This document shows positions 17,117 through 20,469 of a stretch of 64,000 bases of DNA, one piece after another. The notes below the pieces were generated by a model. That model was given only the letters and a program-made list of their open reading frames with translations. It had not been told where the DNA came from and did no database searches. How positions within the stretch are numbered: position 1 is the first letter of the stretch; the number at the start of each line of letters is the position of its first letter. The stretch is from Veillonella atypica KON (GTDB taxonomy: Bacteria > Bacillota > Negativicutes > Veillonellales > Veillonellaceae): the NCBI RefSeq assembly GCF_002959915.1, contig NZ_PPDE01000003.1, forward strand, positions 186,001 to 250,000, read 5' to 3'. The position numbers were made by a program, and so were the translations under genes.

Positions 17117-17767
17117 ATGCAAGTAGAAGTAAAAACAAATGTGTTGGCGAAAAATGATGCCATTGCATCATCGTTACAACAAGTATTTAAAGAAAAAAAT
17201 ATATTTGTCTTTAATCTAATGGGCTCTCCAGGGGCCGGAAAGACCTCTTTGCTAGAAGCAACACTTCAAGATTTAGTTAAAGACTATAAATTAGCTGTTA
17301 TCGAAGGTGATTTATTTACATCTAAGGATGCAGAACGTATTCATGCCCTAGGTGTGCCTGTTATACAAATTAATACCGTTGGGGGTTGCCATTTAGATGC
17401 TAATATGATTCAAGATGCTATAACTGATTTAGATCTTGATGAACTCGATATGATTATTATCGAGAACGTAGGTAATCTAGTATGCCCTGCTGAGTTCGAT
17501 ATTGGTGAGGCGATGAAGGTTACCGTTTTATCTGTTACAGAAGGTGAAGATAAGCCTTTGAAATATCCTCTTATTTTTAAGGAATCAAAAGCTATATTGC
17601 TCAATAAGATTGACTTATTGCCATATGTGCCATTCGATAAAGATAAAGCCATTAAAGATATTCGTAATTTAAATCCTCAAGGCTATATATTTGAAATTAG
17701 CTGTACTGCTAAGGATGGATTGGCGCCTTGGTTAACATGGATTAGAGAACAAATGGAGAAACGTTAA
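17117..17767 (+). CDS. hypB: Hydrogenase nickel incorporation GTPase HypB
   Basis: GTPase that drives nickel insertion into [NiFe]-hydrogenase. The 216-residue protein has the P-loop GSPGAGKT at 36-43, the EGDLFTSKDAERI switch region, a metal-site GGCHLDA and the guanine-specificity NKIDLLP motif. It lacks an N-terminal CxxGCxC or His-rich nickel store, so it is the short form. It starts 7 bases after hypA with only a weak GAGG site and shares its last base with the next gene, suggesting one transcript folD-hypA-hypB-17767. Confidence 0.95.
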   Translation: MQVEVKTNVLAKNDAIASSLQQVFKEKNIFVFNLMGSPGAGKTSLLEATLQDLVKDYKLAVIEGDLFTSKDAERIHALGVPVIQINTVGGCHLDANMIQDAITDLDLDELDMIIIENVGNLVCPAEFDIGEAMKVTVLSVTEGEDKPLKYPLIFKESKAILLNKIDLLPYVPFDKDKAIKDIRNLNPQGYIFEISCTAKDGLAPWLTWIREQMEKR

Positions 17768-19104
17768 TGAAACATATGTTATCTCGTACTGCATTGACGA
17801 TGGCAGTGTTAAGTGCTTTAGGAACCGCATCGGTGGGGGCTGTTGATGCAGGACCAACAATACCGGAAGTAAAAAATACAGTGGCTGTTGTGAAAGCTCC
17901 TGCTGCTGATGAATCTTCGAAAACAGGTTGGTTAGCAGAACAGTTGGCTGTCACTGCTTTTGGTGACTCCTTACAGTATTGGCAAGCTGCTAGTGAAAAT
18001 GATGGTGTTATGCCACAAGATTCAAAAAATAATCTAGCAGATATCGGACGTTCTTATACGTCTAATAATTTACCAGCGCTTGGTGATGAGGATGACTATA
18101 GTCTGGCTCAAAAGCCCGAGTCTGAAGATGGTACAAGTATTGGACCGGTTTATCGCGTTGGTGATGTGTATGTACCTAGTCCATCTGCTCAAAAGACGGT
18201 GAAGGGTGTATTCACAACGTATCATGAAAAAGATATAGATATAACTGTGTATACAGGCCCAGATAAATCGCGTTTAGTAGATAATCAGTTGCGTGGACAA
18301 GGTGCGACCTATTTATTCCCTGTTGGTACTATTACTAATCTTCATACTATTGATAAAGGATTGGTTACAATTCGTGATATCGGAGTAGGCAGTTCTCGTA
18401 TGGAAATGATTTTCTCCTATGGTAGCCCTAATGCGATGTGGCGGAATCAGACTGATGAGTCATATATCTTCTTATATGAAGGTCATTCCGAAAATTCATG
18501 GTCAGAAAAAAAGGAATTTTCTTCTTCCGTAGCGAATACAAATAATAATAGCCAATTACCAGAAACTATTCAAAATGGAAAATTCTATGTGGCTTTCACC
18601 ATTAAAAATAATACGGTAGAGGCTGTTGATATTTTGGATGGTCAAGTATGGTCTCGATTTGGATTGCCTAAGGCGCCTATGTATTCCTTCCATGCCGGTC
18701 AGTTGACTGAGGATGACTTTGTACTACGCGGATTGCATTTGAATCAGCATTTTGTAAATGATGCAAATGGTGAATGGCGTACACAGGGAATGCTGTTTGG
18801 GTCTACGTTCATAGGCTATAATGAATATGGTGTTAGTGTTGACGATAATTCGCTTATTAATCGCGTTTTATTAAATGTCTACACACCAACACGTCGTGGT
18901 ATCGCTATGGGTGATACTAAATATTTATTGCTCTTTGTATATGGTATGCCGACACGTATTGCTGAATCTACAACTAGTACGGGAACGGCTACGGTATATG
19001 AATATAAAAATCCAAGGTTGAATAATTCCTATTTGCAGTTCGCCTTAGATGATAAAAATCAATATATCAAATCAGTGATGTTGTCTGACAGACCTGTTAA
19101 ATAG
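17767..19104 (+). CDS. Secreted protein with two internal repeats, unknown function
   Basis: I do not recognise this 445-residue protein. It has a signal peptide (about residues 1-25, ending GAVDA), a low-complexity linker (30-135) and then a beta-rich region. Two segments look like repeats of one module: 205-292 and 378-442 each hold a YG-(S/M)-P turn, a later Tyr-rich strand (YIFLYE; VYEYKN), then an FxI/FAL strand and a VDILDG/SVMLSD ending. This resembles the small SmpA/BamE-type fold, which is only a guess. The ATG overlaps the hypB stop by one base. No metal-binding motif links it to hydrogenase maturation. Confidence 0.7.
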   Translation: MKHMLSRTALTMAVLSALGTASVGAVDAGPTIPEVKNTVAVVKAPAADESSKTGWLAEQLAVTAFGDSLQYWQAASENDGVMPQDSKNNLADIGRSYTSNNLPALGDEDDYSLAQKPESEDGTSIGPVYRVGDVYVPSPSAQKTVKGVFTTYHEKDIDITVYTGPDKSRLVDNQLRGQGATYLFPVGTITNLHTIDKGLVTIRDIGVGSSRMEMIFSYGSPNAMWRNQTDESYIFLYEGHSENSWSEKKEFSSSVANTNNNSQLPETIQNGKFYVAFTIKNNTVEAVDILDGQVWSRFGLPKAPMYSFHAGQLTEDDFVLRGLHLNQHFVNDANGEWRTQGMLFGSTFIGYNEYGVSVDDNSLINRVLLNVYTPTRRGIAMGDTKYLLLFVYGMPTRIAESTTSTGTATVYEYKNPRLNNSYLQFALDDKNQYIKSVMLSDRPVK

Positions 19105-19130
19105 GTCATCTTATGTGAGGAGGCAAGGAT

Positions 19131-19595
19131 ATGGTTACTGTACAAGATGTGAAAGAACGGTGGGAACAAATTCAAAATAATGATGAACGCATATTGTTTA
19201 TCGTTGGTGGCCCAGGTTCTGGTAAAAGTTTATTGATTCGTGAATTATCAGAACAAAAAGGGTGGAAGTATCTAGAAGCCAAACAACTTATTGAAGAAGA
19301 GTTTTTGTTAGTACCTCGTGATGAAAGACCACAACTTGCAGAAGAAGTAATTCGTCGTGCATTAAGTCGCAGTGATACAGAAGTTGTTCTTATCGATGGT
19401 ATTAATGTATTGTTTGCACCGATATTAAATTTAAATCCTCTTGAACTATTAAAGACTATTAGTAAAACATATCCGATTGTTGTAGGTTGGCGTGGTCATC
19501 TCGAAGGTGATCAATTGTACTTAGAACACAATAATGATCCAAAACATGCGGTAGTGACAATCACTAAACCTGAGCGTGTTATGGTTATTGATTAA
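19131..19595 (+). CDS. Small P-loop ATPase resembling BREX-3 BrxF
   Basis: A 154-residue single-domain ATPase. Walker A is GGPGSGKS at 26-33; the Walker B strand is VVLIDG with D89, followed by INVLFAPILNLNPLELL; a VVGWRG strand comes near residue 130. The size, motif spacing and the (I/L)xxLFxPxLxLxPLxLL pattern are like BrxF, a small ATPase of type 3 BREX phage-defence systems. No other BREX gene (methyltransferase, PglZ phosphatase, BrxC) is in this window. It lies between a secreted protein gene and uppP, with GGAGG before its ATG. A housekeeping role is possible; identification is from memory of the family and moderate in certainty. Confidence 0.65.
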   Translation: MVTVQDVKERWEQIQNNDERILFIVGGPGSGKSLLIRELSEQKGWKYLEAKQLIEEEFLLVPRDERPQLAEEVIRRALSRSDTEVVLIDGINVLFAPILNLNPLELLKTISKTYPIVVGWRGHLEGDQLYLEHNNDPKHAVVTITKPERVMVID

Positions 19596-19671: not shown

Positions 19672-20469
19672 ATGGAACAATATGTAATAGCCCTCATTTT
19701 AGGTGTTATAGAAGGTATAACAGAATGTATTCCTGTATCGAGTACAGGTCATATGATTATTATTGGGCATATGCTCAATTTTGAAGGCACACATGCTGAT
19801 GTATTTGAAGTGTTTATTCAGATAGGTGCCATCCTTGCTATTTATACACATTATAGACGTACATTTAACGGCTTTTTGAAACGGAAAAATTGGATAAAAA
19901 CACGCGGCGTATCTTTGCTACATATTAGTGCGGGCATGTTACCCGTATTAATGGCTGGATATCTATTGCAATACATTATAAAAGAGTATTTATTTGGACC
20001 AATTCCCGTTATAGTAGGCCTTATTATAGGTGCTATATTTATGATTTATGCGGAAAAAAGAACAGTATCTGGGCGATTGGTGGATTCTGTAAATAATTTG
20101 ACTATATATCAATGCTTTCAAATTGGTCTATATCAAATGCTTTGTCTATGGCCTGGATTTCCGCGCTCTGGCGCAACCATTGCAGGGGGGATGCTTATCG
20201 GCTGTACACGGAGGGCCGCAGCTGATTTTTCGTTTATCATGGCTGTGCCTGTTATGATTATCGTGTGTGTGTATGATTTAGTGCGTGTCATACATGCATT
20301 GGGATTAAATGATATCATTATGTTTATCATTGGCACCGTCGTATCATATATAGTGGGATATATAACGGTAAAAGGCTTTTTGTGGTATCTAAATAGATCC
20401 TCGTTGGCGTCGTTTGGATATTATCGAATTATAGTTGCTATTCTAGCAATAATCTATTTATATATGTGA
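19672..20469 (+). CDS. uppP: Undecaprenyl-diphosphatase
   Basis: Integral membrane enzyme that dephosphorylates undecaprenyl diphosphate to recycle the lipid carrier for peptidoglycan and other glycans; its overproduction gives bacitracin resistance (BacA). Counted from ATG 19672, which has GAAGG 8 bases upstream, it has 265 residues and about 8 hydrophobic segments. The two family motifs are present: EGITECIPVSSTGH at 14-27 and PGFPRSGATIAGG at about 160. A GTG three codons upstream is in frame but sits on the ribosome binding site. Confidence 0.94.
   Translation: MEQYVIALILGVIEGITECIPVSSTGHMIIIGHMLNFEGTHADVFEVFIQIGAILAIYTHYRRTFNGFLKRKNWIKTRGVSLLHISAGMLPVLMAGYLLQYIIKEYLFGPIPVIVGLIIGAIFMIYAEKRTVSGRLVDSVNNLTIYQCFQIGLYQMLCLWPGFPRSGATIAGGMLIGCTRRAAADFSFIMAVPVMIIVCVYDLVRVIHALGLNDIIMFIIGTVVSYIVGYITVKGFLWYLNRSSLASFGYYRIIVAILAIIYLYM

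Follow-up and report, generated by a model that had tools for sequence, protein, structure and literature searches.

What does a BrxF-like protein do where no BREX genes accompany it? To our knowledge, the BrxF family has been described only as a component of type 3 BREX, which defends cells against phages. The question is raised by a small gene in the window, which denotes here the whole 64,000-nucleotide stretch of Veillonella DNA that was analyzed; the source genome (2.04 Mb) is 99.99% complete. The original prediction, made from the letters of the DNA, described a lone 154-residue P-loop protein of BrxF type next to uppP, set among cell-envelope and hydrogenase maturation genes without any other BREX partner, and proposed that it may be a domesticated or ancestral family member with a cellular role. 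A search of open-access articles returned no mention of a BREX-free core BrxF lineage in the passages retrieved. The main comparative study likewise mentions neither Negativicutes nor Veillonella.

A BrxF-family protein outside a BREX operon

The open reading frame was confirmed, and profile searches placed BrxF first by a wide margin with no stronger match to any other ATPase family, as had been predicted. NF033453 (BREX_3_BrxF) was the sole NCBIfam model above its cut-off (99 bits against a cut-off of 50, E 1.9e-28, residues 5–140 of 154). The runner-up, adenylate kinase TIGR01360, reached 23.4 bits against a cut-off of 284 and aligned over the P-loop. BrxF also was identified in a PADLOC search (E 6e-24). 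Generic AAA/P-loop matches were returned by Pfam, all under cut-off, and the BrxB family (PF08747) scored 15.4 bits, which is below its cut-off of 26.8. With BrxF and this weak BrxB match set aside, the matches in PADLOC, Pfam and PHROG were to P-loops. Alignment of the solo proteins with BrxF rows from BREX loci using hhalign extended over the whole protein length (probability 100, E 5.8e-40, 160 columns); the BREX-3 operon at locus L091 was verified by its BREX-3 PglZ (NF033449, 815 bits). The solo protein is homologous over its full length to BrxF of type 3 BREX, is of the same size and carries the same LF-P and W-x-G motifs, but its gene lacks an adjoining operon of BrxC, PglX, PglZ and BrxA. 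We therefore class the product with the BrxF protein family and not with the BREX-3 system. The gene, its motifs and its immediate neighbors are collected in Table 1.

Table 1. Positions of the solo BrxF-family gene, its motifs and its flanking genes in the window.
Feature	Position	Strand	Remarks
c13, secreted protein gene	17767..19104	+	Ends 26 nt upstream of the BrxF-like ORF; Veillonellales-type neighbor
Shine-Dalgarno-like GAGGAGG	19117..19123	+	7 nt 5' of the ATG of the BrxF-like ORF; read from sequence
Solo BrxF-family P-loop protein gene	19131..19595	+	ATG start, 154 aa; NF033453 and PADLOC BrxF matches
Walker A GGPGSGKS, residues 26–33	19206..19229	+	GxxxxGK[ST] conserved in solo rows
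Walker B strand VVLID, residues 85–89	19383..19397	+	D89 invariant in solo rows; next residue not acidic
Family motif LFAPILNLNPLELL, residues 94–107	19410..19451	+	F95 invariant in Negativicutes solo rows
W-x-G motif, residues 120–122	19488..19496	+	Aligns with YPG of BrxB
uppP (undecaprenyl-diphosphate phosphatase)	19672..20469	+	PF02673, 227 bits; conserved, not obligatory neighbor

A conserved chromosomal place that is independent of its neighbors

The genes around the BrxF-like frame in the window encode a PBP, FolD, HypA, HypB and the secreted protein c13, and uppP follows downstream. From the layout of the sequence, c13 and the BrxF-like gene probably are co-transcribed. No family in Pfam or NCBIfam matched c13 above cut-off. 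The c13 secreted-protein family occurs across Veillonellales and is marked by repeated G-I-A-x-G-D...Y-G-x-P segments.

Thirty-seven solo loci of Negativicutes were mapped, 29 of which are outside Veillonellales. The names of sigH, pfkA and uppP were checked by profile; the remaining neighbors were named by reading their sequences. Outside Veillonellales the gene order is cysS-mrnC-thyX-rlmB-yacP-sigH, the solo brxF-like gene, pfkA and/or a nudix gene, and uppP, with tuf-secE-nusG-rplK beyond. sigH is within 1.1 kb upstream of the solo gene in 26 of these 29 loci, and pfkA follows directly (within ~95 nt) in 15 mapped loci. Over the full set of 37 loci, 33 have uppP at a downstream distance of no more than 4.5 kb. 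In Veillonellales loci, c13 stands where sigH is found elsewhere. The survey bore out the expectation of a conserved position near uppP, away from BREX genes, in many families of the class. The solo gene probably has been passed down vertically on the chromosomes of Negativicutes, where it occupies one ancestral place between the sigH side and the uppP side.

Such a neighborhood, with pfkA so close and uppP so regularly downstream, could signify an envelope or lipid-carrier role alongside UppP, or a regulator of sigH, pfkA or uppP. The distribution of the genes argues otherwise. UppP was unmatched in 10 of 14 Veillonella genomes, whereas the solo gene was kept in all 14. Decaying uppP remnants lie beside an intact solo gene at two Veillonella loci (149 of 265 residues at L033 and 30 residues at L035), and uppP was not found at two others (L037 and L039). 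Loss of UppP thus seems to be under way in the genus, although the uppP gene of the window is intact. In genome G015 uppP is retained, but at another location. Conversely, in family f14 the solo gene is absent and UppP is encoded in a different context. In family f2 the solo gene is mostly gone and c13 and uppP remain adjacent, with or without the nudix gene, which reads as a clean loss in which both flanks were kept. Nor is sigH beside the solo gene in Veillonellales. On this evidence a role tied to UppP, or in regulation of these neighbors, is improbable.

UppP as an obligatory partner is ruled out by the UppP counts in the 300 genomes surveyed below. Coupling to c13 also was considered and was rejected, since c13 persists where the solo gene has been lost, including genera g2 and g4 which have lost both the solo gene and UppP. 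The solo gene occurs without UppP, SigH or PfkA beside it, and it is unlikely that any one of UppP, SigH, PfkA or c13 is the partner by itself. Thus, the adjacency to uppP that had been singled out holds as a conserved feature but not as a required partnership, since most Veillonella have lost uppP and yet keep the solo gene. The solo gene is itself missing from whole groups (f14, most of f2, g2 and g4) and so is not essential for the class Negativicutes. Usable transposon essentiality data for Veillonella were not found in the literature search.

Most carriers lack PglZ

Profile searches of the Veillonella genome found no PglZ (PF08665), no BREX-3 PglZ (NF033449), no BREX-3 BrxC and no BrxB (PF08747). 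These negative results and the nature of the neighboring genes agree with the original description. Type 3 BREX is recognized by BrxC beside BrxF and by the presence of PglZ; the neighbors in the window are c13 and uppP. BREX-3 BrxC is absent also from the solo-only genomes that were examined.

The survey of the class comprised 300 Negativicutes genomes that were drawn evenly and to which the NF033453 and PglZ cut-offs were applied. The BrxF family exceeded its cut-off in 121 genomes. PglZ did so in 22 of the 300, but in 10 of the 121 BrxF-family carriers (G036, G049, G053, G057, G068, G078, G102, G105, G164 and G165), so that 111 carriers have no PglZ above cut-off. Weak PF08665 matches with frames of 506–510 aa are putative phosphoglycerate mutases, which share this superfamily. 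Among 60 genomes, BREX_PglZ_3 was above cut-off only where a BREX-3 BrxF copy was present or probable. BREX-3 BrxC was detected in three of 30 genomes examined, and a true BREX-3 BrxF followed by BrxC was located in these three (L091 in G165, L066 in G078 and L073 in G164). In both G078 and G164 the separate BREX-3 BrxF is accompanied by a solo copy at the typical chromosomal site, which demonstrates that the two forms co-exist in one genome. The mapped solo loci of Negativicutes contained no BREX remnants.

In ~290 genomes of other Bacillota, most members of the BrxF family precede BrxC. A second solo group with intact Walker A motifs is present in three families (L145 and L149; L153, L154 and L161; L155); its loci have neither BrxC nor BREX-3 PglZ above cut-off and do not share the Negativicutes neighborhood. 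At L140:8542-9838 a short gene and then a BrxA-like gene come after a BrxF-family gene, and none of BrxC, PglX and PglZ intervenes, an arrangement that is possibly a BREX-3 remnant. In genome G418 (L166:4967-12734) a BREX-3 operon lies ~3 kb downstream of sigH, adjoining the Negativicutes solo site, which may be coincidence. A search of plasmids returned six weak matches, five of which are annotated as brxF of BREX-3, and single-protein scans of viral contigs found no relative.

The only characterized relatives of the solo protein are defense proteins and some carriers also possess BREX, which leaves room for a defense protein that either stands alone or assists BREX or another system in trans. 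The site is among housekeeping genes with no defense island, inheritance is vertical, most carriers lack PglZ, and relatives are absent from the viral contigs scanned. A defensive function accordingly is given little likelihood.

Predicted structure and comparison with BrxB and P-loop kinases

An AlphaFold model of the protein was built with eight close sequences, and one of five models was good (pLDDT 71, pTM 0.63). The model places strands 122–125, 128–133 and 136–143 between core strands 116–118 and 150–152. BrxB and BrxF are reported to possess a STAND-like core with a three-stranded cap after strand 4 and to lack the C-terminal helical bundle (PMC12839542). The order of elements in this model of moderate confidence, namely strand 4, three extra strands and a final strand with no helical bundle, may fit this description. 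The predicted fold would resemble STAND and ORC-Cdc6-like P-loop domains in its alpha/beta P-loop core, in the additional strands that come after strand 4 and in the lack of a helical bundle at the C-terminus, but the solo protein is a single domain with no acidic residue following the Walker B aspartate.

Solved structures that matched the model were shikimate, gluconate and adenylate kinases (Z 7–8, up to 8.3; TM ~0.43). Together with weak P-loop sequence matches to kinases, these moderate scores might suggest a small-molecule kinase that merely resembles BrxF. However, the sequence matches are confined mainly to the P-loop, lie far under the curated cut-offs and do not extend over the full length, whereas the BrxF match runs from end to end of the protein and takes in the LF-P and W-x-G motifs of the C-terminal part. 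Structural scores of this magnitude are expected from the common P-loop fold, and the matches appear to be no better than that shared arrangement would give. A kinase identity is quite improbable.

BrxB, which is described as devoid of Walker motifs (PMC12839542; PMC12205998), differs in this respect from the solo protein, and its partner PglZ is absent from the Veillonella genome analyzed here. BrxB of type I BREX binds PglZ and has been proposed to act as a scaffold (PMC12205998). The solo protein shares with BrxB (PF08747) a weak match in the C-terminal half, in which YPG of BrxB corresponds to W120-x-G122. The profile alignment of the two is weak (E 4e-4 in one comparison), and places F95 opposite an aromatic BrxB residue. 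W135 of Escherichia fergusonii BrxB is one of the residues mutated in examining the PglZ interface (PMC12205998), and the aromatic residue aligned with F95 may correspond to W135 by position.

Strong conservation and a separate clade with intact Walker A

The solo gene was present in 13 of the 13 other Veillonella species searched. Its presence in all of these species, and its conservation where compared, indicate that the frame is not a chance one. When the window was compared with seven other Veillonella, the solo protein was 86–97% identical, with dN of 0.014–0.091 and dS of 0.18–2.7. The corresponding dN/dS of ~0.03–0.08 is a rough ratio as the large dS values are near saturation. In most comparisons conservation of the solo protein equals or exceeds that of HypB, FolD and PBP, and it is far greater than that of c13. 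Purifying selection on the solo gene is strong. At L033:5001-5462, the solo gene is 97% identical to that of the window in protein and 95.5% in DNA and most flanking proteins are only 66–88% identical, which suggests that the segment was exchanged between Veillonella species.

An unrooted tree of 78 rows was constructed with Negativicutes solo proteins, other solo proteins and BrxF from BREX loci. The 39 Negativicutes solo proteins constituted one side of a branch with bootstrap support of 98/99, which rose to 100/99 in a thinned tree, and the six other solo proteins occupied their own side of a branch (99/96). The BREX rows did not form one side of a branch in the 78-row tree, in which seven long-branched rows matter. 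When these seven were removed and near copies were thinned, a single branch separated all solo rows from BREX rows (96/92).

The residue patterns also set the groups apart. Walker A (GxxxxGK[ST]) was complete in every solo row, whether from Negativicutes (39 of 39) or from elsewhere (six of six), compared to eight of 33 BREX rows; alanine replaces the first glycine in a few further BREX rows. BrxF has been termed the inactive STAND counterpart of BrxB (PMC12839542), a label that, as far as the Walker A sequence goes, does not fit the solo group. The Walker B aspartate, D89, was retained in all 39 Negativicutes solo rows and is usually followed by G, R or N, which is not acidic in most solo rows. 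Without Glu or Asp at this position, ATP hydrolysis may be weak or absent. R37, A70, F95, W120 and G122 were invariant across the Negativicutes solo rows. In BREX rows F95 was present in 97% and W120 in 88%, and G122 was invariant in all rows, both solo and BREX. The solo form thus differs from BrxF of type 3 BREX as a separate clade with an always intact Walker A and a fixed chromosomal place.

That the gene remains from a type 3 BREX system since lost, and is drifting or was recently stranded, has in its favor the sequence family and name, and is highly improbable in view of the same place in many families, a clade apart from BREX BrxF, the strong purifying selection, a Walker A kept intact where BREX copies often lose theirs, and mapped loci devoid of BREX remnants.

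The earlier proposal, in which the gene has a cellular role and is either domesticated or ancestral within its family, stands as the best reading, the cellular role being deduced from conservation; the unrooted tree does not give the order in which the solo and BREX forms arose. The single branch that unites the two solo lineages (96/92), whose Walker A is intact where that of BREX copies is degraded, would be compatible with an older solo lineage from which type 3 BREX drew BrxF as a chromosomal housekeeping ATP switch. On the same reading Negativicutes, together with a small number of other Bacillota, would retain the original activity of the family. Both suggestions are possible but doubtful.

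A proposed cellular role and its implications

The solo BrxF-like gene very probably serves a cellular role that is independent of BREX. The product would be a small, single-domain P-loop protein of STAND/ORC-like type that binds ATP through its intact Walker A motif. The protein may change state with ATP, and the ATP state in turn may set docking. By analogy with type I BREX, in which BrxB docks on PglZ, the face that bears the LF-P and W-x-G motifs, as placed by the weak alignment to BrxB, would dock on a separate partner. That the protein acts specifically as a switch or adaptor is a tentative suggestion, to which we assign somewhat less than even likelihood. Taken as a whole, the reading of a BREX-independent solo BrxF that works as a cellular ATP-binding switch or adaptor with a separate partner is fairly probable.

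For annotation, NF033453 alone would mislabel solo genes as BREX parts. About two in five of the sampled Negativicutes genomes (121 of 300, nearly all with solo genes) would carry such a misleading name, and a BrxF hit alone is no evidence of BREX. Few parts of BREX are as poorly understood as BrxF and its counterpart BrxB. The solo form, which has an intact Walker A and is found without PglZ, BrxC or a methyltransferase, would allow the activity of the fold to be studied apart from BREX; the gene is present in Veillonella parvula SKV38, at a locus with no uppP downstream. Either defense may have recruited a switch from housekeeping, or cells may have domesticated a component of defense.
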